Origin: a virus
Strand: one strand, 5' to 3'
DNA: 64,000 nt
Virus record (IMG/VR): IMGVR_UViG_3300028384_001046
Coordinates: 1 to 64,000 of that record
Below are positions 45,795 to 63,099 of the stretch, in pieces. Every line of letters begins with the position of its first letter. Position 1 is the stretch's first letter. The position numbers were made by a program, and so were the translations under genes. The notes beneath the pieces were generated by a model. That model was not told where the DNA came from and made no database searches. It saw only the letters and a list, made by a program, of their open reading frames with translations.

Positions 45795-46253
45795 ATGACA
45801 AAGCAGGTTCAATTTAGAAAGGGAACTACAGCTGAACACTTTAACTTCACTGGAGCCCTTGCTGAAATTACTGTTGATACAGATAAAAATGTTGCTGTTG
45901 TTCATGATGGTGCAACCCCAGGAGGTTTTGAACTTTCAAAATCGAGATGGACTTACGTTGCTGGTGACACCGTAACTGGTACTAACCAAAAATATACGGT
46001 GGACTCAACATATAGTCCAACAGGACTGAATGTTACTCTTCCAACCCCCCGTGCAGTGGGTGACTGGGTTTGGATTGAAGACTTTGGTAATTTTATGAGT
46101 ATCAATCCAGTAAATATTATCTCGGATCAAGAATTTGAGAACGGACATCTCGTTAGAGAAAGCTCACCCTTTATTATGGATGTATCTGGAGCTTCCGTAA
46201 CATTCATTTGGAATGGAAGCCTTTGGAAAGTGTTCAACAATAGAGGCAGCTAA
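45795..46253 (+). CDS. Tail fibre head-type structural protein
   Basis: 152 residues. VQFRKGTTAEHFNFTGALAE, then ITVDTDKNVAVVHDGATPGG is the short module that begins many phage fibre and tropism-determinant proteins (QFRRGT...GEixvdTdxxxxxxHDG). The rest (DWVWIEDFGNFMSINPVNI, SGASVTFIWNGSLWKVFNN) is a beta-rich pectate-lyase-like or capping fold seen at fibre ends. Possibly an independent fibre subunit binding the neighbouring giant proteins. Confidence 0.75.
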   Translation: MTKQVQFRKGTTAEHFNFTGALAEITVDTDKNVAVVHDGATPGGFELSKSRWTYVAGDTVTGTNQKYTVDSTYSPTGLNVTLPTPRAVGDWVWIEDFGNFMSINPVNIISDQEFENGHLVRESSPFIMDVSGASVTFIWNGSLWKVFNNRGS

Positions 46254-46679: not shown

Positions 46680-49600
46680 ATGGCTGAGTTTAGACTTGGA
46701 AGAGTAAAATTCAACTGGACGGGCAACTGGGCACCTTCCAAATCCTACCTGATTGACGACATCGCCAAGTTTGGTGGCAATACTTATGTAGCGGTCGCTA
46801 ACCACACTTCCACGGCAAGCACTGCTAACTTCTATACCGACCTTGGAAATTGGAATCTACATATTGAGGGTCTGGAGCAAAGAGGCGAATGGACTACTGA
46901 TACTTATTACAGAGTCAACGATCTCGTCACTTATGCTAACGTAGTATATCGTGTTACTGAGGCACACACTTCTGTTGGTACATTTATCGATGAAACGAAG
47001 GTTGTTCAGTATGTCGCAGGATTTAATGCGGAAGGAGATTGGAGCTTAGAAGAAGATTACCAAAAAGGAGACGTTGTTAACTACAACGGATCGTCCTATG
47101 TTGCAATTACTACTTCCGTAGCAGGATTTGTTCCACCACAATTCATCGGTTTAGGAACAGGTAGCAAGTGGAATATTCTTGCTGATGGCCTTGCTGGTGC
47201 GGCAATCACATATACCGAGGGTACATACTATAGAGGCGATATGATCCTCTATGGTGGTAATACATATCGCCACAAGGTTGGTGTTACTACTAACGTTTCT
47301 CCAATTCAAGTTGGTTTGGGAAGTGTTGGTGATGCTGCTAGAGATGGCTCATCAACTTGGGATCTTTTGGTCAAAGGATTCAGTTTCGTTGGTAATTTCT
47401 CTACAACATTCGCATATCACCCAGGTCATGTTGTTAGATATGGATCTAACTCCTATGTCTCGGTTGGCAATTCCTTCGTAAATATTGACCCAGTTGTTGG
47501 TGTAGGCACCTATTGGGAGACACTGGCTGCTGGTGACTCCGCTGCTGCTCTGAACACTAAGGGTGATCTTCTTACCTATAACGGTGGTCCGGCTAGAATC
47601 GGTATTGGTTCTACTGGTTATGCTCTTGCAGTTCAGTCTAATGGACTACCTGGATACGAAATTGTAGGTAACCAGACTAGAATTTACTATGTTGACTCCG
47701 AGGATGGAATTGATACAAACAACGGTCTTGCACCTAACCTAGCATTTAGAACAATTAAACAGGCTTGTCGTTCTGCACGTCCTGATAACGCTATTACTGA
47801 TTTCGATTATACAGCTGCCACTGGTGTTGCGACAATCACATCTCCTGGTCACGGATTGGCTAACACTGGTACGTTTATCCAGTTGGCTGAAATTGAGTTT
47901 GAGTGTCTGTCTGGTGGTAATGTCTTCAACATCCTGGGCATGACCTACAACAAGTCTGTTGGTCTTGCAACTATCACGGCTATTGGTCTTGGTGCTGCTC
48001 CAGAAATCGGAATCGGTGCTACTGTAAGACTAAGAAACCTTGGTGTTTCGTTCACTGGTAACGCAAACTTCGATCACCAGTTCTCCAGTGCATTGGATGA
48101 TGCAGTTATCACTGGTGGTGATTATATCCACAACTTCGTTGCTGCTACTGCAGGTGCAGTCAACGTTGTGACTGGATCCCTTGCAGGTTCTCAGTTAACT
48201 CCAACAAACGCTGTTTACTCCGCAAATAGTGGTGAATTGGAGATCACAGTTGGTTCTCACGGCCTGTCTATTAGTGACACCATCAGCTTCGACGCCAATT
48301 CCATGACATTCACTTGTCAGATGGACGGTGGTACTGCTAATAAAACATATCCAAGAACAACTGACCCCGCATACGGCGTTAATCTTCCAATTAGTGCAAT
48401 TACTGCGAATACCTTCACAGTTAACGTTGGACCTTCTCCAATTGTAAACTTCAACGTTAGTGATGCAACATATAACCAGACCACTGGTGATATGACAATG
48501 ACCATCGGTATTCACCAACTTGATGTTGGCACATCGGTCAAACTTCTCACTGAAGGTCTGATCTTCAAGTGTTCCATGGATGGTTATCTAACCGACCACG
48601 CATATCCAAGAGCAACTGCTGGTGATGGTTCTCCTGACCCTGCATACAACACTGCTCTGTCAATTACTGCTGCAACAACTACCACCATCACAGTTAACGT
48701 TGGTACTGCAAGTTCTTCTCAGACAATTAACGGTAAGTTCCCTGCAGTTCACACTCAGGCATCTACCTTCCAGTTCCCAGTACAGGCTGTTCCTGATGCG
48801 AACTCTATCGTAGTTAACGTTGGTGCTTCTCAGACTGATTACCTCTACGTTTCTGGTGGTACTGCATTCGTTGGTGTTACTACAACTGTTTATCCTGATA
48901 AGGTTTCCAAGTCTTACTTTGAGGTTCTTCAGGTTATTGACGCTGACACCATCAGAACTAACGTTGGTATTTCTACTATCAACCACACATATGTAAGAGG
49001 TGGTCATCTAACTGACTTGACTCCTGCTATTCTGAAACTATCTGCTTCTCAGTTCTATGAGCAACTGCCAATCAAGGTTCCTCCTTTCACCTCGATTGTT
49101 GGTAACTCTCTAAGAGGTACTCAAGTTCTACCTGCTTCTGGTATTTCTGACGACAGTGTTACTCCTAACAACAGATCTCAGATGTTCCAAATGTCTGATG
49201 CAACTACGCTTCAGGCGCTTTCCATGAAAGGAATGGAAGGATTCTATTATGATCCACAAGCACCCTATGTACTCGATAATGCCAACCTAAGAACTGGTAT
49301 TGGTACTACCGCTTGTGGTGTTGTTTGTGCTCTAAACCCAGATTCTCCAATCAATAACAAGTCTCCTTACGTCAAGGATTGTACCGTATTCTCGGACAAT
49401 GCTTATGACTATGGTCGCTTCGGTGGTGGTGCAGTCGGCGTCTTCTGTGACGGTGGCGTCCATGACGAAGGTGCAAAATCGATGGTCTTTGACTCCTTCA
49501 CCCAGGTATCTTCTGATGGTGCTGGATTCATCCTCGACAAGAGTGCAATTGCTGAGATTGTCTCCTGTTTCACCTACTACTGTCAGTGGGGTTACTACTC

Positions 49601-51113
49601 TGGTGGTGGATCTAGAATCCGTTCTGTTGGTGGTAACAACTCCTATGGTGACTATGGTGTTATTGCATCTGGTTTCTCCACTGAGGAGACCCCAAGAACC
49701 GCAAGAGTCTTTGGTGCCCTGATGGCCGTTAATGGCGCTACTAAGGCAGGTACACTGGCAATCGGTGCTACCATGTTCGGTGCAACATCTGGTGCTCGTG
49801 GATGGTTCCTGAATGACCAAACTGCTGCAGATAAGATCTACTTCAAGTATCATCCTGGTTACGGTTCGGTTGGTCTTGGAACCACTGGATTCGTAGATGG
49901 TGAAGTTGTCTGGTTCGGTGATGGTGGTGAAAATGGTGCTGGTATTGGTTCCATCACGATGTCTGGTGTTACATCTTCTATCAGTGGACAAAAGGGTACA
50001 ATCCTTGAAGTTGATAATGTCTCTTCAACTCTATTGGTTGGTGACGCACTTGGATTCTCCACAACTTCTTACGGTGATGATGATCTCTTCTATATCATCA
50101 ATACCATTACAAATGTCTCTGCCGCGACTACGTACACGTATTACACGACGACTGGCATCGCAACCATAACATATCCAGAACGTGCTACATTGACCATTTC
50201 CCCAGAGAAATCTACTGGAACATGGGATACCAGAGAAGTTACTGGTGCAGGTTCTACTATTAGTATTAGAACTCTCTTCTCACAGTGTCGCCTAACAGGT
50301 CATGACTTCCTGAGTGTTGGTACTGGTAGTAAGGCAGAAACCAACTATCCTGATGTTGATCAAACTAGAATTATTCAGGGTAATGAAACTAATTACTTCG
50401 GTCCTGGTAAAGTCTTCTTTGTCTCTACTGACCAAGGTGGTAACTTCAGAGTTGGTCAATTCTTCTCCGTTGACCAGTTGACTGGTCGCGCCACCCTGGA
50501 CGCCTCCGCGTTCAACCTGTCTGGTCTGACTGAACTGAGACTGGGTGCAATTGGTGGTCAGGTCGGTGAGGCAATTAACGAATTCTCCTCTGACGAATTC
50601 ATGTCTGGTCTGTCCAATAATGCATGTCCTACTGAGGCTGCAGTTGCTGGATTCCTCCGCCACGGTTCGATGGGAACCAAGGCCATGACTCCTCCAGTTG
50701 GTACTACCGCTCAAAGACCTGGAGGCGTTGATGAAGAGTTCAACACTGGTGCTCTAAGATTTAACACCGATCTCGGTGCTCTTGAGTACTACAACGGAAC
50801 CAGTTGGATACAACCTGGAATTCAAGCTTATTCTACCGTGACTACTTCTGGATCAGTTGTATCTGGCACCACTTACTTTGTCAATACCAATGGCGGTCAA
50901 GTCACTCTAGATCTTCCCGCATCTCCTAATCTTGGAGATACCATTAGATTCTATGACGTTGCGAAGACATTCGATTCTAACAACTTAATTGTTGGACGTA
51001 ATGGAAAACTGATTCAGGGTGACGCTGCTAATATGACTGTTGCTCTTGAGGGTGCGTCATTTGAACTCACCTTCTCTGGTGACTCCTATGGTTGGAGACT
51101 GTTCTCCGTCTGA
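46680..51113 (+). CDS. Giant tail fibre/tailspike-like protein with CBM-like repeats
   Basis: 1477 residues with AAGGAG as ribosome binding site. Residues 1-290 hold about five repeats like carbohydrate-binding modules 5/12 (NWAPSKSYLIDDIAKFGGNTY, WTTDTYYRVNDLVTYANVVY, YQKGDVVNYNGSSY, YRGDMILYGGNTY, YHPGHVVRYGSNSY). At 334 YYVDSEDGIDTNNGLAPNL starts a right-handed beta-helix like tailspikes. Residues 505-675 contain two FTC/YPR domains shared with the 2492-aa protein. The helix resumes at about 850-1000 (YVKDCTVFSDNAYDYGRFGG) and the end has GALRFNTDLGALEYYNGTSW, a common fibre tip motif. Likely a host-glycan-binding fibre. Codons are C-richer than in gp7-like and DUF4815 genes. Confidence 0.82.
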   Translation: MAEFRLGRVKFNWTGNWAPSKSYLIDDIAKFGGNTYVAVANHTSTASTANFYTDLGNWNLHIEGLEQRGEWTTDTYYRVNDLVTYANVVYRVTEAHTSVGTFIDETKVVQYVAGFNAEGDWSLEEDYQKGDVVNYNGSSYVAITTSVAGFVPPQFIGLGTGSKWNILADGLAGAAITYTEGTYYRGDMILYGGNTYRHKVGVTTNVSPIQVGLGSVGDAARDGSSTWDLLVKGFSFVGNFSTTFAYHPGHVVRYGSNSYVSVGNSFVNIDPVVGVGTYWETLAAGDSAAALNTKGDLLTYNGGPARIGIGSTGYALAVQSNGLPGYEIVGNQTRIYYVDSEDGIDTNNGLAPNLAFRTIKQACRSARPDNAITDFDYTAATGVATITSPGHGLANTGTFIQLAEIEFECLSGGNVFNILGMTYNKSVGLATITAIGLGAAPEIGIGATVRLRNLGVSFTGNANFDHQFSSALDDAVITGGDYIHNFVAATAGAVNVVTGSLAGSQLTPTNAVYSANSGELEITVGSHGLSISDTISFDANSMTFTCQMDGGTANKTYPRTTDPAYGVNLPISAITANTFTVNVGPSPIVNFNVSDATYNQTTGDMTMTIGIHQLDVGTSVKLLTEGLIFKCSMDGYLTDHAYPRATAGDGSPDPAYNTALSITAATTTTITVNVGTASSSQTINGKFPAVHTQASTFQFPVQAVPDANSIVVNVGASQTDYLYVSGGTAFVGVTTTVYPDKVSKSYFEVLQVIDADTIRTNVGISTINHTYVRGGHLTDLTPAILKLSASQFYEQLPIKVPPFTSIVGNSLRGTQVLPASGISDDSVTPNNRSQMFQMSDATTLQALSMKGMEGFYYDPQAPYVLDNANLRTGIGTTACGVVCALNPDSPINNKSPYVKDCTVFSDNAYDYGRFGGGAVGVFCDGGVHDEGAKSMVFDSFTQVSSDGAGFILDKSAIAEIVSCFTYYCQWGYYSGGGSRIRSVGGNNSYGDYGVIASGFSTEETPRTARVFGALMAVNGATKAGTLAIGATMFGATSGARGWFLNDQTAADKIYFKYHPGYGSVGLGTTGFVDGEVVWFGDGGENGAGIGSITMSGVTSSISGQKGTILEVDNVSSTLLVGDALGFSTTSYGDDDLFYIINTITNVSAATTYTYYTTTGIATITYPERATLTISPEKSTGTWDTREVTGAGSTISIRTLFSQCRLTGHDFLSVGTGSKAETNYPDVDQTRIIQGNETNYFGPGKVFFVSTDQGGNFRVGQFFSVDQLTGRATLDASAFNLSGLTELRLGAIGGQVGEAINEFSSDEFMSGLSNNACPTEAAVAGFLRHGSMGTKAMTPPVGTTAQRPGGVDEEFNTGALRFNTDLGALEYYNGTSWIQPGIQAYSTVTTSGSVVSGTTYFVNTNGGQVTLDLPASPNLGDTIRFYDVAKTFDSNNLIVGRNGKLIQGDAANMTVALEGASFELTFSGDSYGWRLFSV
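48194..48705 (+). repeat. Two FTC/YPR domain copies in a second protein
   Basis: Copies near 48194 and 48447 (TFTCQMDGGTANKTYPRTTDP; FKCSMDGYLTDHAYPRA) align with the array at 24326-25890. They are preceded by a single GGDYIHNF unit, so the same two repeat types occur side by side in both proteins. Confidence 0.75.
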
Positions 51114-51180: not shown

Positions 51181-51963
51181 ATGGCCAACTATAGATCATA
51201 TAAAAAAGTCACAGCGTCCCAGGTTCCTGATGGGTCTATCACCATTGAAAAACTCGCAAATGGTGTTGGACCCTCTTGGTGCGTAAAAACTTTCTATGGT
51301 GATCCAGGAGTTTGTACTCCTGGTTGTTGCTGTAACTGGACAGTACCAGCGGGAGTTGCTAAACTAACTTGGGAACTATGGGGTGCTGGAGGAAACGGAC
51401 ACGGAGCCTGTTCTTGTAGAAGATGCCATCACTATAGAGGTGCTGGTGGAGGTTCTTTCACAACCAAAACAATCGATACTACCCCAGGATGTTCATATAC
51501 AGTATGTGCTGCTGGAGTTTACAGATGTTGTTCACGAGAATGTGTAGGATGTTACGGATGTGCATCGTATGTTAATGGATATAACTTGACTAACTTCTGT
51601 GCAGTTGGTGGTGGTAGAGGAGAGGCTAATACAGATTGGTCCAACCTCTGTCATTCAACAATTGCTTGTTGCGTTCAACCTGGAAGTTATAATAGTGACT
51701 TTGGAATGAATGCACATTGGCCTGGATTCAGTGGTCACTGGAGTTGCCATTGTGGACTATCTGTAACTCAAACTTGTTCTGGTGGTGCTCCATTTATTGG
51801 AGTTGGTAATAAAACGTATTCTTCACACTGCTGGATTCGTTGTGGTTGCTGGTCCTCTCCATATGGTGCAGGTGGACAGGGTGCAATGACTTCATATTGT
51901 GAGAGATGCTGCGGACAAGGTGGTACAGGTGGATCTGGACTTGTAAGACTCACATACATGTAA
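51181..51963 (+). CDS. Cys/Gly-rich adhesin-like protein, copy 1
   Basis: 260 residues with 28 Cys (about 11 percent) and very many Gly. The head MANYRSYKKVTASQVPDGSI followed by a T/K-rich helix is a fibre-attachment type. CNWTVPAGVAKLTWELWGAG, then GAGGGSF and CGQGGTGGSGLVRLTYM at the end follow the glycine-rich domain of phage tail fibre tips (WTVPxGVxxLxVxLWGaGG). Cys appear in clusters (PGCCC, CSCRRC, YRCCSRECVGC, RCGCW, ERCCGQGG) at positions mostly kept in the two next proteins. No signal peptide. Probable receptor-binding tip; the Cys may form disulphides outside the cell or bind metal. First of three tandem paralogues. Confidence 0.8.
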   Translation: MANYRSYKKVTASQVPDGSITIEKLANGVGPSWCVKTFYGDPGVCTPGCCCNWTVPAGVAKLTWELWGAGGNGHGACSCRRCHHYRGAGGGSFTTKTIDTTPGCSYTVCAAGVYRCCSRECVGCYGCASYVNGYNLTNFCAVGGGRGEANTDWSNLCHSTIACCVQPGSYNSDFGMNAHWPGFSGHWSCHCGLSVTQTCSGGAPFIGVGNKTYSSHCWIRCGCWSSPYGAGGQGAMTSYCERCCGQGGTGGSGLVRLTYM

Positions 51964-51975
51964 TAGAGGGAATCA

Positions 51976-52770
51976 ATGGCTAGCTATTTAAGTTACAAAA
52001 AAATTCAAGGCGATCAGTTAGAGGATAATATCCTCGACGCTGCTAAGTTCTCCACATCCCCGACTTCCACGTTTGGAGTGAAGTGGATCTACGGGACAAT
52101 GTGTCGTTGTTCTCCTGGTTGTTGTTGTCTTTGGACTGTACCTACTGGAGTTAAGAAACTCTGGATTCAGGCTTGGGGATCTGGTGGTAATGGTGCAGGT
52201 GCATGTTCTTGTAATAGATGCCAACACTATAGAGGTGCAGGCGGTGGATTTTATAATAGTGTCATGATTGATACTGCTTCAGGATGTCAGTATCGTGTCT
52301 GTGCAGGTGGTGTATATCCATGTCTCTCTATAGAATGTTGTGGATGTATTGGTTGTGCATCATATGTTAATGGATATAACTTGAGCAACTTCTGTGCATA
52401 TGGTGGTTCATGTGGTCACGCTAATAGTAGTTGGTCAACCTCATGTAACGCAACTTGGCATTGCTGTGTAGCACCAACATCTAATGGTGGTCAGTTTGGT
52501 ATGGGTAATCTGCGTGACAGTTGGACCAATGGTGGATATTCCACTAACCGTGGCTGGTGTCACTGCTATGTTCAGATGACTAACCCAACTGCCGCTCCAT
52601 TTATTGGAACAGAAGTTATTCAATCTATTCGTGAGTGCTGGATTCGTTGTGGTTGCTGGATCGTTCCTTATGGTAATGGTGGACAAAATGCAATGACTAC
52701 CTATTGCGGACGTTGCTGTGGTCAAGGTGGTACTGGCGGTGGCGGTCTCGTCAAAATTACGTACTTCTGA
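51976..52770 (+). CDS. Cys/Gly-rich adhesin-like protein, copy 2
   Basis: 264 residues, also 28 Cys. Same plan as copy 1: CLWTVPTGVKKLWIQAWGSG, CSCNRCQHYRGAGGG, the IECCGCIGC cluster, RCGCWIVPYGNGGQ and CGRCCGQGGTGGGGLVKITYF. The head (DQLEDNILDAAKFSTSPTS) and the segment at about 165-205 (NGGQFGMGNLRDSWTNGG) differ most from the sisters, suggesting variable surface loops on a fixed Cys/Gly frame. Twelve bases after copy 1; TAATAGAGGG between them provides a ribosome binding site. Confidence 0.8.
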   Translation: MASYLSYKKIQGDQLEDNILDAAKFSTSPTSTFGVKWIYGTMCRCSPGCCCLWTVPTGVKKLWIQAWGSGGNGAGACSCNRCQHYRGAGGGFYNSVMIDTASGCQYRVCAGGVYPCLSIECCGCIGCASYVNGYNLSNFCAYGGSCGHANSSWSTSCNATWHCCVAPTSNGGQFGMGNLRDSWTNGGYSTNRGWCHCYVQMTNPTAAPFIGTEVIQSIRECWIRCGCWIVPYGNGGQNAMTTYCGRCCGQGGTGGGGLVKITYF

Positions 52771-52776
52771 TAAATA
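52770..52776 (+). promoter_or_regulatory. Possible late promoter before copy 3
   Basis: ATAAATA (GATAAATAAC) right at the stop of copy 2, 20 bases ahead of the ATG at 52797. A weaker TTAAATA follows. Same distance as the promoter before copy 1, so the element may have been duplicated with the gene. Confidence 0.45.
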
Positions 52777-52796
52777 ACTATTAAATAGGACTCCTA

Positions 52797-53594
52797 ATGG
52801 CTAATTACGCTTCTTATAAACAGATTAGTAACTCCCAAATCGTTGATGGGTCTATTACAAACACCCAGTTAGTACAGGGCGCTTTCTCGAACTGGAACGT
52901 CAAATGGATCTATGGTGATGCACAGGCAATGACATCTGGTTGTTGCTGTAATTGGACAGTACCCACTGGAGTCCAAAGGGTTTATTGGGAGCTCTGGGGT
53001 GCTGGAGGAAACGGACACGGAACGTGTTCTTGTAATAGATGTTATAACTGGCATGGTGCTGGTGGAGGATACTATAACTCAAAATCAATGGGTGTCAGTG
53101 CTGGAGACAGTTACACTGTTTGTGCTGCTGGTGTTTATCGTTGTTGTTCCAGAGATTGTGTTGGATGTAGAGGATGTAGTTCCTATGTAAACGGAACTGG
53201 ACTATCTAACTTCTGTGCTGCTGGTGGAACAAGAGGTTGTGCAACTAACTCTTGGAGTACTACTTGTTTCTCTGCATTCCAAGATTGCTGCGTTCAACCA
53301 GGAGCATGGGGTGGAGACTTTGCAATGGGTAACCACGCTGGTGGTACTAGAAAAGGATATGGTGGTGGTGGTTGGAACTGTCACTGTTACTATAACGAAA
53401 GTAGACCCACTGGTGCTCCATTCATGGGTACTATGGGTGTCAACTCTGCTGTTAGACACTGTTGGGTTCGTTGTGGTTGCTGGAGAGTTCCTTATGCACA
53501 TGGTGGTCAGGGCGCAGTTACATCTTACTGTGAGAGATGTTGCGGACAAGGTGGAACAGGTGGTAGTGGTGTTGTTAAAATCAGCTACATGTGA
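52797..53594 (+). CDS. Cys/Gly-rich adhesin-like protein, copy 3
   Basis: 265 residues with 25 Cys. It resembles copy 1 most closely (WELWGAGGNGHG, VCAAGVYRCCSRDCVGC, SYCERCCGQGGTGGSG) but lacks the first two Cys of the head and has a glycine-rich loop RKGYGGGGWNCHCYYNES. The head is again a fibre-type (SNSQIVDGSITNTQLVQG). It ends the transcript: a strong terminator follows after 21 bases. Function inferred as for copy 1. Confidence 0.8.
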   Translation: MANYASYKQISNSQIVDGSITNTQLVQGAFSNWNVKWIYGDAQAMTSGCCCNWTVPTGVQRVYWELWGAGGNGHGTCSCNRCYNWHGAGGGYYNSKSMGVSAGDSYTVCAAGVYRCCSRDCVGCRGCSSYVNGTGLSNFCAAGGTRGCATNSWSTTCFSAFQDCCVQPGAWGGDFAMGNHAGGTRKGYGGGGWNCHCYYNESRPTGAPFMGTMGVNSAVRHCWVRCGCWRVPYAHGGQGAVTSYCERCCGQGGTGGSGVVKISYM

Positions 53595-53690: not shown

Positions 53691-54467
53691 ATGGCAACAG
53701 AAATTATTTCTCACGCTTGGAACATGCCAGTTCCAAATGACTTCCTAAGAGATCACTCTTTTAGTGAAGGTAGAACAAGAGCCGTCAGTTATGACGGACC
53801 AGATAAGATTTGGCTTCAAATCGGTGCAGATGGTACTGAACTGTATGGTCCACTGACTGAAGATGATATGGCTGATGGGCGCCCAGTCCCAGCTGATGTT
53901 ACTCAGATGTTTGAAGTAAACTGTACTGAGTATCCTCTCATCTGTCAGTTAAGAGCACCAGTTATCAACGAAAGACAAGAAGATAGAAGTGTAGATGATG
54001 AAATTCGTCATCCAGATTGTCCTGATATGACTGCCCAAGGTTACAGGACCTTTACTTACAATGAAACTCTTTTTGTGGAAGACATCTATGACGCTTCAAC
54101 TGTCAGAGTTGTTGATGGAGTTCCAACAGTTCATGCCTTTACCGTTAATGAAAAACTGATTGGTAGAGCAGATGATTTAACTTGGGATGATATCAGATCT
54201 CATAGAAACGCTCTTCTAGATGGTAGTGATCAATCTATTGCAGAGGACATGCCTGAAGATATGAAGAATAGTTGGAAAGCATATCGCCAAAAGTTGAGAG
54301 ATCTCCCTGCAGAGCTTGAGGCTGCTGGAGTTAGTCCAAATATTGCATACTATATGTTCCCACAACAGCCATTCTTTACTACTCCACCTTCTGATCCAGA
54401 ACCACCTGCAGATGCAACTGCAGGTTGGGCTCCACCAGAAAGTGGTGTTATGAATGGGGTTTCCTGA
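53691..54467 (+). CDS. Tail fibre assembly chaperone-like protein
   Basis: 258 residues. The C-terminal segment NSWKAYRQKLRDLPAELEAAG matches the W..YR..LRDLP motif of phage tail fibre assembly/ tail assembly chaperone proteins. The N-terminal half (PDKIWLQIGADGTELYGPL) is beta-rich, and the tail is Pro-rich (FPQQPFFTTPPSDPEPPAD). Its place right after adhesin genes and its own promoter/terminator fit a helper of fibre assembly. It could alternatively be a virion protein that merely shares the motif. Confidence 0.65.
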   Translation: MATEIISHAWNMPVPNDFLRDHSFSEGRTRAVSYDGPDKIWLQIGADGTELYGPLTEDDMADGRPVPADVTQMFEVNCTEYPLICQLRAPVINERQEDRSVDDEIRHPDCPDMTAQGYRTFTYNETLFVEDIYDASTVRVVDGVPTVHAFTVNEKLIGRADDLTWDDIRSHRNALLDGSDQSIAEDMPEDMKNSWKAYRQKLRDLPAELEAAGVSPNIAYYMFPQQPFFTTPPSDPEPPADATAGWAPPESGVMNGVS

Positions 54468-54511: not shown

Positions 54512-54524
54512 AATGGGAGGAATT

Positions 54525-55157
54525 ATGTTTGAACTGAATGAATCTCGTAAAACAACAGTAAAAAAAGTCTACGATCATGCTAAAAATGAACTGGGACATG
54601 TATGGAGGTATGTAATTACTGTAGATGATTTTTATAAAAACCCAGATGAAGTGAGGGAGTTTGCTTTAAATTGTACCCCCAAAAAAGATAAAAAGTATAC
54701 TGGCAATCTTATTGGGTCTAGAGTTGTTGAAGATGTAAATGGTTTTGATCAGAATTTAAGACAAGTTTTTGAAAAAGCATGTCAATTTGATTTTTGGAAT
54801 CCAGAGTTCGATGAAACTTTTTGGAGAGACACAAAATTTATGGTAAATGTCACCACCTCAGATGATATTGAAACCAGATTTAATGAGAGAAAACACACTT
54901 ATACATTCCATAAAGACTCCACCAGTTATAAGTGGGCATCATTAATCTATCTCAATAAAGAAGAGGAGTGTGATGGTGGAACCAACTTTTATGCGTGGAT
55001 GCCAGAAGATCCTTGCGCTACACCTAGATTGGAATATAGTATAGAAATGAAGTATAATAGAATGGTTTTATATGAGTGTGATCATATGCATGGAGCTGTC
55101 CTAAAAAAAGGTATGTTCAGTGATTTCCCGAGACTAACACAAGTGTTATTCATGTAA
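54525..55157 (+). CDS. DUF6445-type 2OG-Fe(II) oxygenase-like protein
   Basis: 210 residues from the ATG at 54525, which has GGGAGGA just ahead; the ATG at 54513 overlaps that site. ITVDDFYKNPDEVREFAL is the DUF6445 head. TFHKDSTSYKWASLIYLN gives an H-x-D pair, GGTNFY follows, and MKYNRMVLYECDHMHGAV supplies the distal His. This is the plan of iron/2-oxoglutarate enzymes, though activity of this family is untested to my knowledge. A sister on the minus strand (63099) has the same plan. First gene of the island, directly after a terminator; the promoter driving it is not obvious. Confidence 0.75.
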   Translation: MFELNESRKTTVKKVYDHAKNELGHVWRYVITVDDFYKNPDEVREFALNCTPKKDKKYTGNLIGSRVVEDVNGFDQNLRQVFEKACQFDFWNPEFDETFWRDTKFMVNVTTSDDIETRFNERKHTYTFHKDSTSYKWASLIYLNKEEECDGGTNFYAWMPEDPCATPRLEYSIEMKYNRMVLYECDHMHGAVLKKGMFSDFPRLTQVLFM

Positions 55158-55174: not shown

Positions 55175-55217
55175 AATCAGAATAGATCATTCTTTATCAT
55201 CCCGTTTGGAGTTGTAT

Positions 55218-56372
55218 ATGAGACCCAAGGCATTTTTTATTAATGGAGGAGCTGGCAGAGTACTTTGCTCCATCCCTGCATTTGAAAAATATGCAGAAGA
55301 ACATGATGATTTTATCATTGTTGCTGAAGGAGGCACTGACTTTTTTAAGGGTCATCCCACCTTAGATGGTAAAGTCTATGATGTTTGGCACAAGAATTTG
55401 TTCCAAGAACATCTGAAACACAGAGATTGTGTTTCTCCAGAACCATACAGAATGTGGCATTACTACAACCAGAAGTGTAGTTTGACACAGGCTTTTGATA
55501 TGGAAATCAACGGTCTAGAAGAACCTAGAGAACTTCCCAAACCAACTCTCAACCTCACTAAGATGGAGGTTATTGCTGGTTACAATATGGTTCAGGAAGT
55601 AAAAGCAGTAACTGGTAAAGATAAAGTAGTTGTTATCCAACCCTTCGGTAGAGGTGTCGAACAAGTAGGTGACTTTATTGCAGACGCTTCTTCTAGAAGC
55701 ATGTCTCTAGTAAACACTGTAGACATCATCAATGACCTTAAAAAGGATTATGGTGTCATTGTCATGTCCGAAATTCAATTCCCTGTAGAAGAAAACGAAG
55801 ATAAGTCTAAGTATAAAATTGCAAGACCCCAGATTGAAGACATTCGAGTTTGGGCATCTGTAATTGATGTTGCAGACCACTTCCTAGGTGTGGATAGTAT
55901 TGGTCAACATATCTGTAAGGCTTTAGATAAAAAGGCAACCGTTGTAATCGGATCCACATATCCAGTCAATATTTCTTATCCAGAAGATAAGAACTTTGAT
56001 ATCATTGATATTGGTTTGGATAAGAGAAAATATTCTCCCATTAGATTGACAATGGATGAAGCTGTTGATCGTTATAATGATCAATCAATGGAAATGTCTA
56101 AAGATGATATTAGTAAAGTTCTAAGTTCTGTTAGAAAAGCTATGGGTAAACCCGCTACTTTTAAGGGAACTTACACTCCTGTTCAACAACAGCAAGATTG
56201 TCCTACATGCCCACCAGGAACTAAGACAACTCCCGCCGTTGCACCAGGAAGCGCTGCAATGATGCCGCAACAACAATGGAATCAACCACCAGTTATCGCG
56301 GAGAAACCCAAAAAACCAAAAGTAGGATTCAAACAGGAAGTAAAGAATCTCTTAAAGACTGAAACTAAGTGA
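55218..56372 (+). CDS. GT9/heptosyltransferase-like glycosyltransferase
   Basis: 384 residues from the ATG at 55218 (GGAG six bases ahead). MRPKAFFINGGAGRVLCSIP has the Gly-rich N-terminal loop of the GT-B fold; KVVVIQPFGRG opens the second domain, and DHFLGVDSIGQHICKALDKK, then TVVIGSTYPVN follow the GT9 pattern (DSxxxHxAxAxxxxxVxxFGxTxP). GT9 enzymes transfer heptose from ADP-heptose to LPS core, which fits the HldE/HldD-like genes downstream. The last 70 residues are Gln/Pro-rich and Lys-rich (PVQQQQDCPTCPPG, then EKPKKPKVGFKQ) and probably disordered, an uncommon extension. Confidence 0.72.
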   Translation: MRPKAFFINGGAGRVLCSIPAFEKYAEEHDDFIIVAEGGTDFFKGHPTLDGKVYDVWHKNLFQEHLKHRDCVSPEPYRMWHYYNQKCSLTQAFDMEINGLEEPRELPKPTLNLTKMEVIAGYNMVQEVKAVTGKDKVVVIQPFGRGVEQVGDFIADASSRSMSLVNTVDIINDLKKDYGVIVMSEIQFPVEENEDKSKYKIARPQIEDIRVWASVIDVADHFLGVDSIGQHICKALDKKATVVIGSTYPVNISYPEDKNFDIIDIGLDKRKYSPIRLTMDEAVDRYNDQSMEMSKDDISKVLSSVRKAMGKPATFKGTYTPVQQQQDCPTCPPGTKTTPAVAPGSAAMMPQQQWNQPPVIAEKPKKPKVGFKQEVKNLLKTETK

Positions 56373-56381
56373 GGTATTTAA

Positions 56382-58178
56382 ATGTCACAATGGATTGCGG
56401 CTATTGCCCGAGGACATAACTCGGGTCTTTGTCTCCTGAAAGATGGAGAAATTGTATTATCGATTGAGGAAGAAAGACTTTCTAGGAACAAGTATGATGG
56501 TGGTCCATATGCTTGTATGACCAGAATCCTGGATTTTACTGACAAACTAGACTATCTTGTTATTGCACATACCCAACCACTAAGTGAGGCTGGTCATTGT
56601 GATTTTAGTGGAGATCCAATCTATGTTGCATTAGCAAGAAAGTTGGGGTTGATTGATAGACATGCAAACCCACATGAACATCCACAAGTTATTGACCTAA
56701 GTTCTACTCATCATAAACTTCATGCAGCATGTGCATTTTATAGATCAGGTTTTGATCGCGCTGCTGCAGTTGTTGTTGATGGTGCAGGCACTTTTATTCC
56801 CATGAATATTAATGGGGAAAATGAAATGACATGGGAACTAGAGTCCATGTTTAATTGTGAGTATCCATCCGAATTTAAAACTGTCTACAAGCACCAAGGT
56901 GGAAGAGGTCCATGGGGATCTATTAGATTTGAAGAGTTTAGTAGTGAGAGAGAAGGTGAAGAAGGCACTCATGAGATGATTCTTGATGAGAGCGCTGGCA
57001 TTACCAAAGCGTATGAAGCGGTAACTCAATATTGTGGTTGGGCACCTATCGAAGCTGGTAAGACTATGGGTTTATTCCCATATGGAAAACCCAACGATCA
57101 TATTCCAGATGTATATACCGATTATAATGGTACTGCAACATGGAAAACATCTAATAGGGACCTTATTGTACCAACCTATCCTAACGGTGCCGTAGTCAAC
57201 CAGGGGCGGTTTAAGTTCCTTCAGACTGACTATGACTATGAAGGAGATAAGACCCTCTTAGAGAACCGTAGAGACATGGCATACGCCATTCAAGTAGAGT
57301 CTCAGCAAATGGTTTTGGATCTTATTCGTAAAGTTGTAGATATGACTGGTCAAACTAATGTTGTATTGACTGGTGGATATGCATTAAATTGTGTTGCTAA
57401 CTATTGGTATCTTGAACAACTCAAAGATGAAGGTATTAACTTATTCGTAGAACCAGTAAGTAATGATGCTGGTACTGCAATTGGAGCAGCACTCCTTCAA
57501 TATCATAGAGTAACGAAAGATGCACAAGTCCGTGAACCACTAAAAACCCTTTATACTGGATTTGAATACATGTATGCAACCGATGAAATTGTAGATACTG
57601 CAGATAAGTATGAGTCTACGAGAGTCTTTGAAGCTACAAACAAAGATGTAATTGATCTAATTACCAACAAAAATATTGTTGCTGTTTTCCAAGGTAGATC
57701 TGAAGCTGGTCCTAGAGCACTGGGCAATCGTTCTATTCTATATGATCCTCGCGATCCTGATGGAAAAGACTTTGTTAATAAGGTAAAACGTCGTGAATAT
57801 TTCCGACCATTCGCTGGGTCAATTCTAAAAGAACATGTTCATGAATGGTTTGATCTTCGTGGCATGGATGAAACTCCATTTATGATGTATGCTGTTAAGT
57901 GTAAGGAGGGTATTGAGGAAAAAATTCCTGCAATTATTCACGTTGATGGAACTTGTAGAATCCAAACAGTCACTGAAGAACAGAACAAAAATTATCATGA
58001 TCTGATTAGAGAGTTCTATGAAGCTACTGGTTGTCCTATTGTCTTCAACACTTCTTTTAATCTGGGTGGCGAGCCTCTCGTTGAAACACTTGATGACGCT
58101 TGCAGAACCCTCGCTAACTCTGATATTGAATACCTGTACTTGCCCGAATATGGTTTGATGATTGAGGTTAAAAACTAA
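56382..58178 (+). CDS. Carbamoyltransferase, NodU/TobZ family, full length
   Basis: 598 residues, the usual size. The N-terminal Kae1/TsaD-like domain has GHNSGLCLLKDGEIV, the metal-binding STHHKLHAACAFY and LTGGYALNCVANYWYL, EPVSNDAGTAIGAAL; the C-terminal YrdC-like domain has FQGRSEAGPRALGNRSIL and VFNTSFNLGGEPLVET. The C-terminal domain makes carbamoyl-adenylate from carbamoyl phosphate and ATP, and the N-terminal domain transfers carbamoyl to a hydroxyl group, commonly of a sugar. Its stop overlaps the adenylyltransferase ATG by one base. A half-size relative lies at 59887. Confidence 0.9.
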   Translation: MSQWIAAIARGHNSGLCLLKDGEIVLSIEEERLSRNKYDGGPYACMTRILDFTDKLDYLVIAHTQPLSEAGHCDFSGDPIYVALARKLGLIDRHANPHEHPQVIDLSSTHHKLHAACAFYRSGFDRAAAVVVDGAGTFIPMNINGENEMTWELESMFNCEYPSEFKTVYKHQGGRGPWGSIRFEEFSSEREGEEGTHEMILDESAGITKAYEAVTQYCGWAPIEAGKTMGLFPYGKPNDHIPDVYTDYNGTATWKTSNRDLIVPTYPNGAVVNQGRFKFLQTDYDYEGDKTLLENRRDMAYAIQVESQQMVLDLIRKVVDMTGQTNVVLTGGYALNCVANYWYLEQLKDEGINLFVEPVSNDAGTAIGAALLQYHRVTKDAQVREPLKTLYTGFEYMYATDEIVDTADKYESTRVFEATNKDVIDLITNKNIVAVFQGRSEAGPRALGNRSILYDPRDPDGKDFVNKVKRREYFRPFAGSILKEHVHEWFDLRGMDETPFMMYAVKCKEGIEEKIPAIIHVDGTCRIQTVTEEQNKNYHDLIREFYEATGCPIVFNTSFNLGGEPLVETLDDACRTLANSDIEYLYLPEYGLMIEVKN

Positions 58179-58585
58179 TGAAGACAGTTTTTGTTAATGG
58201 TACATTTGATATCCTTCATCCAGGACACATTGAATTATTTCGAGTAGCAAAGTCTCTTGGTGATCGTGTAGTCGTCGCTACTGATAGTGATGCTAAGATC
58301 AAAAAAGACAAGGGACCAACTAAACCGATTAATGATTTGTGTTATCGAGTATCAATGCTTAAGTCAATTAAGTATATTGATGTTGTTCATTATTTCCATG
58401 ACAGATCTGGTTTGGAGAGTTTAATTAGGCTCTATAGACCAGATATTCTCCTTTTGGGGGGTGATTGGGAAGGCGGAGATGTTGTCGGTAAAGATCTTGC
58501 CAAAGAAGTTAGATTTCTTCCAAGAGTAGGAGACTACTCATCTAGTGCTGTTATTAATAAAATTCTAACAAATCATTCAACCTGA
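58178..58585 (+). CDS. HldE-C-like heptose-1-phosphate adenylyltransferase
   Basis: 135 residues. VFVNGTFDILHPGHIELFRVA contains the cytidylyltransferase motif HxGH; VVVATDSDAKIKKDKGPTKP and LLLGGDWEGGDVVGK follow the C-terminal domain of HldE (RfaE2), which joins heptose-1-phosphate to AMP. In enterobacteria this domain is fused behind the kinase; here it is separate and upstream of it. Stop and next start overlap (TGATG). A glycerol-3-phosphate cytidylyltransferase is the main alternative, less likely next to an HldE-like kinase. Confidence 0.8.
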   Translation: MKTVFVNGTFDILHPGHIELFRVAKSLGDRVVVATDSDAKIKKDKGPTKPINDLCYRVSMLKSIKYIDVVHYFHDRSGLESLIRLYRPDILLLGGDWEGGDVVGKDLAKEVRFLPRVGDYSSSAVINKILTNHST

Positions 58586-59370
58586 TGAATTATAATATAT
58601 TAGTTATTGGCGACTCCTGTGAAGATGAATATATCTATGGAGATTGTTCTAGATTAAATCCAGAGGGACCCATTCCCGTTCTTGATAAAACTTCTACAGA
58701 AGTCAAGGCAGGAATGGCAGCAAATGTTAATGCAAACTTGAAGTCACTTGGAATTAAAACTAATCTAATTACTCAAAAAGAGACAATCAAAAAAACAAGA
58801 TTTGTTGATAGAAAGAGTAATTATCAATTACTTAGAGTTGATTCTACACCTGAGGTGACTCCTTTAAGCGCTCCTCAGGTCAAGATGGCATTCATGCACA
58901 GTCGATATGATGCATTAGTAATATCCGATTATAATAAGGGGTTTCTTACAATCCAATCAATGCAGACTATTTGTACGTATTTTAGGGGTCCTATTTTCAT
59001 TGACACTAAAAAGACTAAGTTATTCCAACAATCTAATGTTTTTTACAAAATAAACAAGAAGGAATATGATCTACTTGATAGGGAATATATGCCCAGTGAT
59101 ACTAATCTAATCGTCACTTTGGGAGCAAACGGATGCAAATGGAGTGGTATCCATTTTCAACCAAGAACTGTCAATGTATTTGACGTATGCGGAGCTGGTG
59201 ATACCTTTCTCGCGGCATTAGTTTCTGAGTTTCTTGTTACAAAAGATATGCAAAGGTCTATTGATCTTGCAAATAGAGCAGCTTCTATCTCTGTAGAAAA
59301 CCCAGGAACATATCAACTAACTAGATCTGATATTGAGAGGATTTATAATGAGCGAATTCAAACAACCTAA
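58585..59370 (+). CDS. HldE-N-like heptose-7-phosphate kinase (PfkB family)
   Basis: 261 residues. NILVIGDSCEDEYIYGDCSR, then LNPEGPIPVLDKTSTEVKAG and MAANVNANLKSLG match the HldE kinase start ([20 protein letters not shown]...PGGAANVAMNIASLG), and VFDVCGAGDTFLAALVSEFL is the PfkB active-site motif with the catalytic Asp. It is about 50 residues shorter than the bacterial domain. Proposed reaction: phosphorylation of D-glycero-D-manno-heptose 7-phosphate at C1. Overlaps the next gene by 23 bases. Confidence 0.8.
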   Translation: MNYNILVIGDSCEDEYIYGDCSRLNPEGPIPVLDKTSTEVKAGMAANVNANLKSLGIKTNLITQKETIKKTRFVDRKSNYQLLRVDSTPEVTPLSAPQVKMAFMHSRYDALVISDYNKGFLTIQSMQTICTYFRGPIFIDTKKTKLFQQSNVFYKINKKEYDLLDREYMPSDTNLIVTLGANGCKWSGIHFQPRTVNVFDVCGAGDTFLAALVSEFLVTKDMQRSIDLANRAASISVENPGTYQLTRSDIERIYNERIQTT

Positions 59371-59893
59371 TCCAATATTTTGGATGCCTTTCTTTATCGA
59401 ACCAATCGATGTCGATAAATTAGAATTTAAAGAGGAACCAAACTATAAACCAACGTTTATTTCAAGAACTCCAACTACAATGGAGGAGGATTGTCTCACT
59501 GATGAATCATACAATTATCTTGGTAGATTGATTTGGGAATGTATTGGTCAATATACAGAAAAACCTTTTTTCATTGGTTCTGTTTGGCGTAATAAGTATG
59601 GAAAGACTGATTGGCAAGATCCACATATTCATTCTGGAGCTCAATGGAGTTTTGTAATTTACGTGGATGTTGAAGAGTCCAAGACAGTTTTTCTTTCTCC
59701 AAGCAGACACGATCAGATGAATCAATGGGGATATTTGGGTAACGCATTTCCTATTGATTATTCACCTAAAGTTTCTCCTGGAAATATTATAATTTTCCCA
59801 TCATTCATCGAACACTTTGTTCCCCCTGGAAATGAAGGTATAACTATATCAGGTAACATTTATTATGATCAACCCCCTGGAGGACCATGCTAA
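59348..59893 (+). CDS. Putative 2OG-Fe(II) oxygenase, HxH type
   Basis: 181 residues from the ATG at 59348 (MSEFKQPNPIFWMPFF), with AGAGGA ahead; the frame opens 15 bases earlier. NKYGKTDWQDPHIHSGAQWS, then FVIYVD fits the putative 2OG-Fe(II) oxygenase family with an H-x-H metal pair, and PGNIIIFPSFIEHFVPPGNE holds the distal His. The closest relative in this window is the protein at 6062. In the sugar operon it may hydroxylate a sugar or lipid intermediate, but the substrate is unknown. Confidence 0.72.
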   Translation: MSEFKQPNPIFWMPFFIEPIDVDKLEFKEEPNYKPTFISRTPTTMEEDCLTDESYNYLGRLIWECIGQYTEKPFFIGSVWRNKYGKTDWQDPHIHSGAQWSFVIYVDVEESKTVFLSPSRHDQMNQWGYLGNAFPIDYSPKVSPGNIIIFPSFIEHFVPPGNEGITISGNIYYDQPPGGPC

Positions 59894-61044
59894 AAAAACA
59901 AGTAGGGTTTAATCTGACACATGATTCATCGGTATCAGTTTTAGATGAAGATGGTGACATAGAGCTTTTTGTAGAAGAAGAAAGATTAAGCAGAATTAAA
60001 CATGATAGCATTCCATTCAAAGCATGTGATCTTGTTCTTGGTGGACTTACTTTGCAAGAGATTGAAAAATATGAACTGGGTGCAAGTGGATTAATATACA
60101 GAGATGAATATGGAGCAACAAGATTAAATACTTATTATGACCCACTGATTATTAATACTGTTAAATCATTAAAAACTGCCGTACAGGATCGCTCCATTGA
60201 AAACTATGAACTAATAAAGAAAAAATTTGATATATTTTATGAGCATCACTTATTTCATGCTTATTGTGGATTCTATAATTCTGGATTTGATGATGCAGTT
60301 ACAGTTGTAGTTGATGGTATGGGAAATTCTGTAATTGATAATACGGGGTCTTTCAACGAAGATACAAATGAGGTTGCTTCAATATTCGATGCATCTTATC
60401 CAAAGAATATGAATTATTTGGGAGGAATGGCTACACATTCTACTCATAGTCCTTGGGAGAGTCAAAATACAAACCATGATGGTAATTGGACATGTGGAAT
60501 TGGCATGGCATATTCTGCAGTATCTGCTTACATGGGTTTTGGACAACTTGGATCTGGAAAACTAATGGGTCTTGCTCCGTATGGTAAAGAAGATCCAAAT
60601 ATTAGACCTTTTCTTCTTGACAATGGATTTCATGTAAATTCATCTCTTTTTTATAGGACCACAAATGGATGTAATTTTGTTCCATATGATTATTTGCCTC
60701 GATGTGGAGATGGAGAATCTTTCGATATTGAAAATAATTTTGAAAAATTAGCTAATCTTGCTTGGAGGATTCAAGAAGATTTTCAGAAACACATGTTGAA
60801 AATTTTATTGGATGCTCTTAAAATGACAGGACGTAAAAATATTATTTTAACTGGTGGATGTGCTTTAAATTGTGCTGCAAATTACTGGTATTTGGATAAG
60901 TTGCCAAAAGATGTTAAACTATATGTGGAACCCATCAGTACTGATGCTGGAACTAGTCTTGGGATAGCCAAGGCTCAACATTATTCCAAAACTGGTTCCA
61001 TGAAGAAACACCCACTTAAAACCTTATACTTAGGACCCGAATGA
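59887..61044 (+). CDS. Carbamoyltransferase N-terminal domain only
   Basis: 385 residues that align with the N-terminal two thirds of the enzyme at 56382: FNLTHDSSVSVLDEDGDIEL, YEHHLFHAYCGFYNSGFDDA, GSGKLMGLAPYGKEDP, LTGGCALNCAANYWYLDKLP and EPISTDAGTSLGIAKA. It stops after HPLKTLYLGPE, the point where its relative continues with PLKTLYTGFEYM into the YrdC-like domain. The end is clean: the next gene starts in its stop (ATGA). It would need carbamoyl-adenylate from elsewhere, perhaps from the full-length relative, or it does something else. Confidence 0.82.
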   Translation: MLKKQVGFNLTHDSSVSVLDEDGDIELFVEEERLSRIKHDSIPFKACDLVLGGLTLQEIEKYELGASGLIYRDEYGATRLNTYYDPLIINTVKSLKTAVQDRSIENYELIKKKFDIFYEHHLFHAYCGFYNSGFDDAVTVVVDGMGNSVIDNTGSFNEDTNEVASIFDASYPKNMNYLGGMATHSTHSPWESQNTNHDGNWTCGIGMAYSAVSAYMGFGQLGSGKLMGLAPYGKEDPNIRPFLLDNGFHVNSSLFYRTTNGCNFVPYDYLPRCGDGESFDIENNFEKLANLAWRIQEDFQKHMLKILLDALKMTGRKNIILTGGCALNCAANYWYLDKLPKDVKLYVEPISTDAGTSLGIAKAQHYSKTGSMKKHPLKTLYLGPE

Positions 61045-61367
61045 GATATAACGTGGATATAGACGGCACTATCTGTATTCCTGGAAAGGGAGAAGGTAGA
61101 TATACTGAAGCTGTACCTATCCCAGAAAGGATCGCTAAAATAAATGATCTATATATTAAAGGACATCAAATAATCTACCATACTGCTAGAGGTATGGGTA
61201 CATTTGATAATGATAGAGAAAAGGCTAAAGAAAAGTATTATGACTTCACCCTAAAACAGCTTCGCAGTTGGGGGTGTATGTTCCACGATCTTTTCCTAGG
61301 GAAACCTGCCGCCGACTATTACATTGACGACAAAGGAGTAAACTCTGATGATTTCTTCAAGACCTAG
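61041..61367 (+). CDS. HAD-family phosphatase-like protein
   Basis: 108 residues. NVDIDGTIC carries the HAD nucleophile DxDGT; IIYHTARGMG has the Thr of motif II and GKPAADYYIDDKG the Lys and the paired Asp of motifs III/IV. This short HAD type is common in capsule and sugar-nucleotide gene clusters. It could remove the C7 phosphate from heptose 1,7-bisphosphate in place of GmhB, which would complete the pathway between kinase and adenylyltransferase; this is inference. Overlaps both neighbours. Confidence 0.78.
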   Translation: MRYNVDIDGTICIPGKGEGRYTEAVPIPERIAKINDLYIKGHQIIYHTARGMGTFDNDREKAKEKYYDFTLKQLRSWGCMFHDLFLGKPAADYYIDDKGVNSDDFFKT

Positions 61368-61722
61368 AGCAGGGGAACCGATCAAATTCGTATCCAAAGG
61401 ATGGGGATATGAAAAATGGATCGTTAACTCCGAACAATATTGTGGTAAACTCCTTTTCATTGCAAAAGGAAAACAATGTTCTTGGCACTTTCATAAAAAG
61501 AAAGACGAAGTTTTCTACGTCCAAAGTGGAAAAATTAAAATCTACTATGGATGGGACGACAATATTGAGATGGCTAGTGTATCTGTCTTGGAACCAGGAG
61601 ATAAGTTTCATGTTCCTATTGGAATGAAACATAGAATGTATGGTCTTTCGGATACTGAACTATTTGAGTTTAGTACAGAACACTTTGATGAAGACAGTAA
61701 TAGAATTCAACCTGGGGATTGA
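61348..61722 (+). CDS. Cupin, phosphomannose isomerase-like
   Basis: 124 residues. SWHFHKKKDEVFYVQSGKIK is cupin motif 1 (HxHxxxxExxxVxxG) and PGDKFHVPIGMKHRMYGLSD cupin motif 2, with metal-binding His and Glu. GWGYEKWIVN resembles the start of type II mannose-6-phosphate isomerase cupins. Likely sugar-phosphate isomerase or sugar-binding protein; with the sugar genes around it, a role in providing heptose or mannose precursors is possible. Confidence 0.78.
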   Translation: MISSRPRAGEPIKFVSKGWGYEKWIVNSEQYCGKLLFIAKGKQCSWHFHKKKDEVFYVQSGKIKIYYGWDDNIEMASVSVLEPGDKFHVPIGMKHRMYGLSDTELFEFSTEHFDEDSNRIQPGD

Positions 61723-62327
61723 TGAAAGCAGAAAAGATAACTGACCTGATTGTGGTTTTGAAAAATCACATTCCAGATGATACTTGTGATGAAATACTAG
61801 AATGGTTTGAATTAAATAAACATCTACAAACAGATGGATGTGTTTATAGCACAGAAGGAGATCAAGATAAAGGTGCCAAAGTTGACAAAGATTTTAAGAA
61901 TGCTATTCAAACTCTAGTTCCTCCAGGAGCATCTATCTCAGACAAAATGACAGAGATCACCATGTCTGCCTTCAGAGAAGCTGGTTCTAGATATCCAGTT
62001 CCAGAAAATAGTATGACCTTAAATGATTATTGCGTTAGAGTATATCCCAAAGACGAAGGGATATTTAAGACTCATGTGGATCAACACGCATTTGGAACCG
62101 TAAGTAGATTATTTGCTTGCATTATGTATCTTAATGATGTTGAGATTGGTGGGGAAACTGAATTTCCAGACTGGAACATAGCAGTAAAACCAGAGAAAGG
62201 AAAAGTTTTATTGTTCCCATGCAATTATCTTTTCAAACATAAAGGCAATGTTCCTATCTCAAACGAAAAATATATTGCTACAAACTTCATTAACTTTATG
62301 ATGCAAGATATTCCTCTAGTGTCTTGA
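61722..62327 (+). CDS. Prolyl-4-hydroxylase-type 2OG-Fe(II) oxygenase
   Basis: 201 residues from the ATG at 61722, overlapping the cupin stop by one base. KTHVDQHAFGTVSRLFACIM provides the H-x-D pair, YLNDVEIGGETEFPDW is the usual strand after it, and KGKVLLFPCNYLFKHKGNVP the distal His with the 2-oxoglutarate-binding Lys in PISNEKYIATNFI. This is the canonical P4H/PKHD set. Substrate unknown. Its 3' end overlaps the convergent minus-strand epimerase by 32 bases. Confidence 0.82.
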   Translation: MKAEKITDLIVVLKNHIPDDTCDEILEWFELNKHLQTDGCVYSTEGDQDKGAKVDKDFKNAIQTLVPPGASISDKMTEITMSAFREAGSRYPVPENSMTLNDYCVRVYPKDEGIFKTHVDQHAFGTVSRLFACIMYLNDVEIGGETEFPDWNIAVKPEKGKVLLFPCNYLFKHKGNVPISNEKYIATNFINFMMQDIPLVS

Positions 62328-63099
62328 GTCTATAATTCAACCATTCCATATCTGCACAGGTGTAGTCTTGATACTTACCTTTCAGATGATCAGGGAAAGG
62401 AATCATTTCGATTTCTCCCCCTTCTTTTTTAGCAATTAACTCTGCAACTCTCTGGAATGACATTGGTTTACCAGTTCCGATGTCATAGATTCCACTAGGA
62501 GCATCATTATTCATGACAATATTGACTATATCATCTACACATACAAAGTCTCGATAAAACTTATCGGATCCTTCAAATAATTTTAGTTTTCCTGTCTCTT
62601 TAATCTGTTTAGTAAACTTTGAAACGGGACTTGCTTGATCTCCCTTATGGTCTTCACCAGTTCCATATACATTAAAATATCTAAATCCTTGGATACTCTC
62701 AAACCGATCTAGATTGTCCAATACGTAATAATCTATGATTAGTTTTGAAATTGCATATTGATTTAAGGGATTTATTTTTCTACATTCTTTTGTTTGATTG
62801 CCATACACAGATGCTGAAGACGCATACTTAATAGGAATCTTGTGTTCTATCGCATGAGAGAAGAGATGAGCAGTAAAGGTTTGGTTGTAGTGGGAGATCT
62901 TCATCCAGTTTTTTTCTGTAGTGGATGAGATTGCTCCATTATGAATGATTAGATCTACATTTTCCCAACCATTGAATTTAGCCATGAAATCCCATGCATT
63001 ATCCATATCAATACCGATAACGTCACGTTCTGCTTCATTTTCAAGATATTTTAAAAAGTGGGATCCAATGAATCCCTTATAACCAGTAAGTAAGATCAT
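62296..63099 (-). CDS. HldD-like ADP-heptose 6-epimerase
   Basis: 267 residues on the minus strand. [16 protein letters not shown] is the Rossmann start; [26 protein letters not shown], YAISK (YxxxK), [38 protein letters not shown] and [20 protein letters not shown] all follow E. coli HldD closely (SSTTE, [45 protein letters not shown]). HldD turns ADP-D-glycero- into ADP-L-glycero-D-manno-heptose. About 40 residues shorter than the bacterial enzyme. The start overlaps the stop of the minus-strand gene upstream (TGATG), so the two are co-transcribed opposite to the rest of the island. Confidence 0.9.
   Translation of the reverse strand: [267 protein letters not shown]

Follow-up and report, generated by a model that had tools for sequence, protein, structure and literature searches.

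The window, i.e., the whole stretch of 64,000 nucleotides analysed here, encodes three tandem cysteine-rich proteins whose reading as adhesins at the fibre tip of a T4-like cyanophage, folded as a TNF-like plus a glycine-rich domain, is well supported, and the genes for Cys-rich tips have been found in strict association with a gene for a GT9-like glycosyltransferase across unrelated phages. This transferase link is new here, was absent from the first reading of the DNA, and is the finding that deserves follow-up. As the transferase lies beside Cys-rich tips even when the tips themselves are unrelated, the cysteines may be sugar-attachment sites, and we see about an even chance that the tips are distal fibre ends whose cysteines accept an S-linked sugar from this enzyme. 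The window is part of a 110,915-base viral record, for which the nearest relatives are the T4-like cyanophages Synechococcus phage Sf-FS3, which infects Synechococcus WH8102, and S-SSM7; tip protein 1 is 98% identical to the Sf-FS3 tip. The tips and their immediate neighbours are the following:

46680..51113, + strand: large tail fibre of 1477 aa, probably capped by the tips (phrog_9851, tail fiber protein; order kept in S-SSM7, S-CAM1, S-CAM3 and P-SSM2)
51181..51963, + strand: Cys-rich TNF-like/glycine-rich fibre-tip protein, position 1 (260 aa, 28 Cys; PHROG 4205, E 1.7e-52; PF21722 above cut-off)
51976..52770, + strand: Cys-rich tip protein, position 2 (264 aa, 28 Cys; PHROG 4205, E 4e-52; own orthologous group)
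52797..53594, + strand: Cys-rich tip protein, position 3 (265 aa, 25 Cys; PHROG 4205, E 2.4e-54; own orthologous group)
53691..54467, + strand: tail-fibre assembly chaperone-like protein (PF16778, Phage_tail_APC, E 1.1e-10; compare the Pam3 chaperone gp25, PMC9608196)

Cysteine accounts for 10.8, 10.6, and 9.4% of tip proteins 1, 2, and 3, and glycine for 16-18%. Among the window's open reading frames of at least 200 aa, which contain 1.1% Cys on average, these three are the only ones above 3%, and virion genes other than the tips reach 0-0.8%. The original prediction had described the tandem paralogues correctly in coordinates, length, cysteine count, and layout; the majority of Cys do align between the three at 55-60% pairwise identity, and the variable head and the loop placed near residues 165-205 come close to the variable stretches found (the head, about residues 151-165, and residues 180-215). 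This cysteine density is not unique to the window, as relatives with 24-36 Cys, annotated as hypothetical, are also encoded by S-SSM7, S-CAM1, S-CAM3, and P-SSM2.

The fold and the tip role have been established by computation from several sides. The PHROG 4205 profile, a family of unknown function, matches all three proteins over their full length (E 4e-52 or better), and PF21722 (Gly_rich_2) is above cut-off for protein 1, below it for protein 3, and without a match for protein 2, while it is above cut-off in the relatives of S-SSM7, S-CAM1, and S-CAM3. PHROG 4205 and PHROG 35878 are thus the sequence families of the tip proteins, with no function, fold, or cysteine role recorded in PHROGs. 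Structure prediction, which had been proposed as a check, was run on protein 1 as a monomer and gave an AF2 model with a pLDDT of 81.5 and a pTM of 0.78 (131 aligned relatives). The best solved structure found with this model by Foldseek is the Pam3 fibre gp24 (7ypx_A, E 1.3e-6, TM 0.54). Next in rank are a chain of the Bxb1 tail tip and the LTK TG domain, while the match to ALK is weaker; 7nx1, of the ALK/LTK TG type, has E 6.8e-4. Among the predicted viral structures of BFVD the model resembles many phage glycine-rich tail proteins and tail fibres. A sequence search of the PDB with the tips returned no match. The order of fibre, tips, and assembly chaperone is found in the window and, by profile, in the freshwater-type locus L152, and likewise in S-SSM7, S-CAM1, and S-CAM3. 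The claim of a fibre-tip adhesin in a glycine-rich frame is therefore borne out by the similarity to Pam3 gp24, by PF21722, and by the place between fibre and chaperone. Just 5' of the large fibre, positions 45795-46253 encode a small tail protein whose N-terminal domain is of the major tropism determinant type (PF18454).

In Pam3, the pair of TNF-like and glycine-rich domains is proposed to bind the receptor at the end of the fibre, and its folding involves a chaperone that the phage encodes (PMC9608196). Gp24 (PDB 7YPX) and gp25 share with the present system this domain pair, the variable distal loops, and the dedicated assembly chaperone; however, gp24 constitutes an entire simple homotrimeric fibre for which tandem paralogues are not described, and cysteine goes unmentioned in the gp24 paper (PMC9608196). 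The gp38 adhesin of Salmonella phage S16 also caps a long fibre with a glycine-rich distal tip (PMC9608196), but it has been described with a beta-helix instead of a TNF-like domain and is absent among the Foldseek matches listed. The window's tips represent a known adhesin fold in a version rich in Cys, which occurs in marine cyanophages and in viral contigs related to them. The cysteines are dispensable for the fold, as PF21722 is also matched by syn9 gp38, encoded 3' of the syn9 fibre genes (2 Cys in 266 aa), and by Mosig_62 (4 Cys in 516 aa). Among the profile matches in the collected tip loci none has less than 5% Cys, a count that is biased because the searching profile is itself Cys-rich.

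The original prediction suggested that the three copies may be versions that widen host range, which the phylogeny does not support: across phages of the window's subfamily the genes are orthologous position by position, and copy number is set by subfamily. Genes at each of the three positions cluster separately in this subfamily, for the most part with good support, and their order is constant. A common group of first-position genes from all subfamilies is rejected (AU p 0.0007), and one of second-position genes marginally so (p 0.048); triplets have therefore arisen more than once or have been homogenised within lineages. Distinct loci with both flanks carry three tips in 85 cases, two in 34 (the P-SSM2-like group), and one in a single case; one tip is also what the contig L313 shows. 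Recent host-range duplicates are disfavoured, since each subfamily keeps its number and order of copies; the phylogeny argues for distinct roles over spare or recent versions, and the three tips look like non-interchangeable parts. An obligatory heterotrimer has been considered, since most loci have exactly three genes, but is not required because one- and two-tip loci exist; a heterotrimer of the three tips is possible. Folding a single-frame read-through fusion of the three tips (L065) in place of a heterotrimer gave a model too poor to bear on this question (pLDDT 39.8, pTM 0.36, 30 rows); a mixed alignment of single tips and fusions was left out, as every row stacked on the middle segment. 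In the locus L074, Cys79, Cys221, and Cys244 (numbering of window protein 1) have given way to W, H, and N in each of the three tips, which suggests homogenisation among the three or a single shared ancestor.

Downstream of the tips, the window encodes the transferase and a set of sugar genes:

55206..56372, + strand: GT9-like glycosyltransferase, proposed to act on the tips (phrog_8954; weak heptosyltransferase matches)
56382..58178, + strand: NodU-type carbamoyltransferase (PF16861, PF02543, nodul_NodU)
58178..58585, + strand: HldE/RfaE domain II-like adenylyltransferase of ADP-heptose synthesis (TIGR02199, E 1.5e-32, below curated cut-off)
58585..59370, + strand: HldE/RfaE domain I-like kinase (TIGR02198, E 3e-41, below curated cut-off)
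59887..61044, + strand: second carbamoyltransferase-like protein (PF02543, E 7.2e-24)
62296..63099, - strand: ADP-glyceromanno-heptose 6-epimerase-like protein, HldD (TIGR02197, E 1.4e-67, below curated cut-off)

The linkage of transferase and tips has likewise been established computationally. In all 188 testable loci, i.e., collected loci that extend 3.5 kb or more past the last tip, the transferase gene lies 3' of the tips at a median distance of 999 bases, and so it does in 127 of 127 loci after removal of duplicate tips, which do not amount to 127 independent events because the loci share synteny by descent. With about five independent lineages showing the pairing, the association of transferase and Cys-rich tips is strong without being replicated 127-fold. 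Every cyanophage of the annotated phage collection that has Cys-rich TG tips is in the list of transferase matches, from which syn9 and Mosig, with Cys-poor PF21722 tips, are absent. A search of 84,980 genomes that started from the transferase yielded seven loci (two of them matching copies), all of which adjoin Cys-rich tips. A scan of genome contigs by tip pattern found no relative, and since the transferase-first scan located tips that were overlooked in this way, pattern scans do miss members of the family. Scans of viral contigs for the vibriophage-type transferase gave one locus or none.

As a prediction test of the link, the match list also includes phages without recognisable TG tips, in which the neighbour of the transferase is again rich in cysteine. 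In AG-345-P14 it comprises 282 aa with 26 Cys and no Pfam match, and AG-345-O18 has neighbours of 758 aa (73 Cys) and 290 aa (31 Cys). Vibriophage SBP1 carries a tail protein of 925 aa and 41 Cys beside the transferase, and no other reading frame of at least 200 aa in this genome is as rich in cysteine. The tail proteins found there in D505 and K479 contain 41 or 39 Cys, located mainly in the first half (2.3-2.4% Cys overall). Aeromonas phage HJ05 has gp49 at this place (559 aa, 23 Cys), with the cysteines concentrated in the C-terminal half; both the SBP1 tail protein and HJ05 gp49 are encoded about 10 bp from the transferase gene. The transferase thus tracks Cys-richness across unrelated tips. 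The fibre-tip slots beside the GT9-like gene at L299:5117-5965, L300:5290-6132, and L301:10016-13161 hold two Cys-rich groups of low glycine content and no significant Pfam match (282 aa with 26 Cys; 758 aa with 73 Cys plus 290 aa with 31 Cys), and the vibriophage tail proteins at L303:10224-15494 and L306:9747-14678 carry their Cys clusters in repeated, helical-looking 'AYADG' segments, e.g., CICACAYADG.

The assignment of the enzyme to GT9 rests on its homologues: the window protein has no PF01075 match, the S-CAM1 homologue scores 22.0, exactly at the cut-off, and those of SBP1 and D505 lie above it. With the LPS heptosyltransferases WaaC and WaaF of this family the phage enzymes share the C-terminal donor-site motif and, in phage homologues, the GT9 profile. 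Unlike these, the phage enzyme adjoins fibre tips and not LPS core genes, its cyanobacterial hosts are without LPS heptose, and the position of the N-terminal catalytic Asp of GT9, which we take to be D13 of WaaC, is an invariant Arg in the nine aligned members of the phage family. From the alignment, this exchange could reflect a thiol acceptor, or an altered or lost activity.

The HldE- and HldD-like genes of the window resemble those for the last steps to ADP-heptose. RfaE domain II has been detected in seven of seven cyanophage-type records tested, and in none of syn9, Mosig, the vibriophages, and HJ05. Vibrio and Aeromonas make their own ADP-heptose. The LPS of marine Synechococcus WH8102 is without heptose (PMC4515613), and therefore a cyanophage would probably have to supply this donor itself. 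Three genes similar to 2OG-Fe(II) oxygenases and two DUF6445 matches (54513-55157 and 63099-63806) share the cluster with the tip and sugar genes, the set being located at 54513-55157, 59333-59893, and 61719-62327 on the + strand and at 63099-63806 on the - strand. S-CAM3 gp149 (L088:13827-14183) and its counterpart in the window (61348-61722) both show a Cupin_2 match and otherwise weak sugar-isomerase matches only, so that the annotation of gp149 as cysteine dioxygenase looks doubtful.

We propose the following mechanism. The three tips would form the distal ends of the long tail fibre of the virion, where the TNF-like and glycine-rich domains would contact the host, and they would mature with the help of the chaperone encoded next door. 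Many tip cysteines would receive an S-linked glycan from the GT9-like transferase (55206-56372), namely a heptose-like unit that may be carbamoylated. As heptose is missing from the LPS of the cyanobacterial host, we infer that the donor in cyanophages is ADP-heptose made through the HldE- and HldD-like genes of the phage itself. In its fullest form, i.e., that dozens of cysteines in the unrelated tips of cyanophages, vibriophages, and the Aeromonas phage are decorated through sulphur with heptose-like sugars by this transferase, and that this accounts for the ADP-heptose genes of cyanophages, the proposal falls somewhat short of an even chance. No acceptor motif is evident around the tip cysteines, which speaks against the proposal, as does the low overall Cys content in D505 and K479. 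The closest known chemistries are those of the glycocin S-glycosyltransferase SunS, which places a sugar on Cys, and of the autotransporter heptosyltransferases TibC/BAHT, which place heptose on adhesins. SunS is, however, a GT2 enzyme with small bacteriocins as substrates, TibC modifies Ser, and neither is known to act on a phage fibre.

The main rival is disulphide locking, in which lysis into oxygenated water would let the cysteines pair and so hold the thin glycine-rich tip together, while the transferase acts elsewhere; we give it perhaps half the weight of S-glycosylation. It would agree with the conservation of the cysteines, of which about 20 columns are invariant or nearly so among 195 unique close relatives. 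Between random pairs Cys is retained at 0.92, compared to 0.80 for Gly as second best and less for all others, and between subfamilies 55% of Cys are retained, the same share as for Gly and roughly double that of the residue ranking third. Judged from these alignments, no residue in the tip family is conserved more strongly than Cys, and its richness is not a product of chance. The cysteines at window positions 78 and 151 are moreover both present in the S, F, P, and X subfamilies and both missing in W, and real disulphide networks have been described in the tail of Agrobacterium phage Milano (PMC10811340). Milano resembles the present case in giving Cys a structural role in a phage tail, but its disulphides are formed between subunits and its structural proteins contain 2.1% Cys, as opposed to about 10% in the tips (PMC10811340). 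Against pairing, the number of cysteines is odd in 43 of 65 first-position sequences, no Cys pair covaries significantly by independent contrasts (which were few), and the phages encode glutaredoxins and no thioredoxin. A search for an Evr1_Alr oxidase returned no match in the phages, with the controls silent too. Disulphide locking leaves the transferase link unexplained. Neither the disulphide nor the metal part of the original prediction gains support from these data.

A smaller share of the probability goes to plain co-inheritance, by which Cys-rich tips and sugar cluster travel together and act separately, with the cluster altering host LPS and blocking superinfection. The synteny is indeed conserved across loci, and for the LPS clusters of cyanophages a comparison in 2010 left open whether they are functional or stuffer DNA (PMC3037559). 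Nevertheless, the pairing persists, about 10 bp apart, in unrelated vibriophages and HJ05, which lack the rfaE and carbamoyltransferase genes. Binding of zinc, copper, or iron-sulphur by the tip, for folding or receptor contact, appears improbable: the Cys density is high and Cys is exchanged for His at C243 in W and at C221 in L074, but replacements overall are not His-specific, no metal motif is conserved across subfamilies, and the spacings CC, CxC, and CxxC stay near the expectation from shuffled sequences (with CxC of protein 2 as the exception, P 0.037), so that the tips show no metallothionein-like enrichment. A direct modification of tip cysteines by the carbamoyltransferase, as by HypF on HypE, is very improbable, since the NodU/HypF-like enzyme, found in every cyanophage-type record tested, is missing in SBP1, D505, K479, and HJ05 despite their Cys-rich tails and transferase, and is present in Mosig, whose tip is Cys-poor.

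To our knowledge, no other phage fibre has such a cysteine density. If these cysteines carry sugar, the tips would be the first S-glycosylated phage fibre that we are aware of, and this would have consequences for host recognition and for the annotation of viral sugar genes. For the LPS-like clusters of marine cyanophages (PMC3037559), the strict pairing of tips and transferase in unrelated phages suggests a purpose that can be tested.
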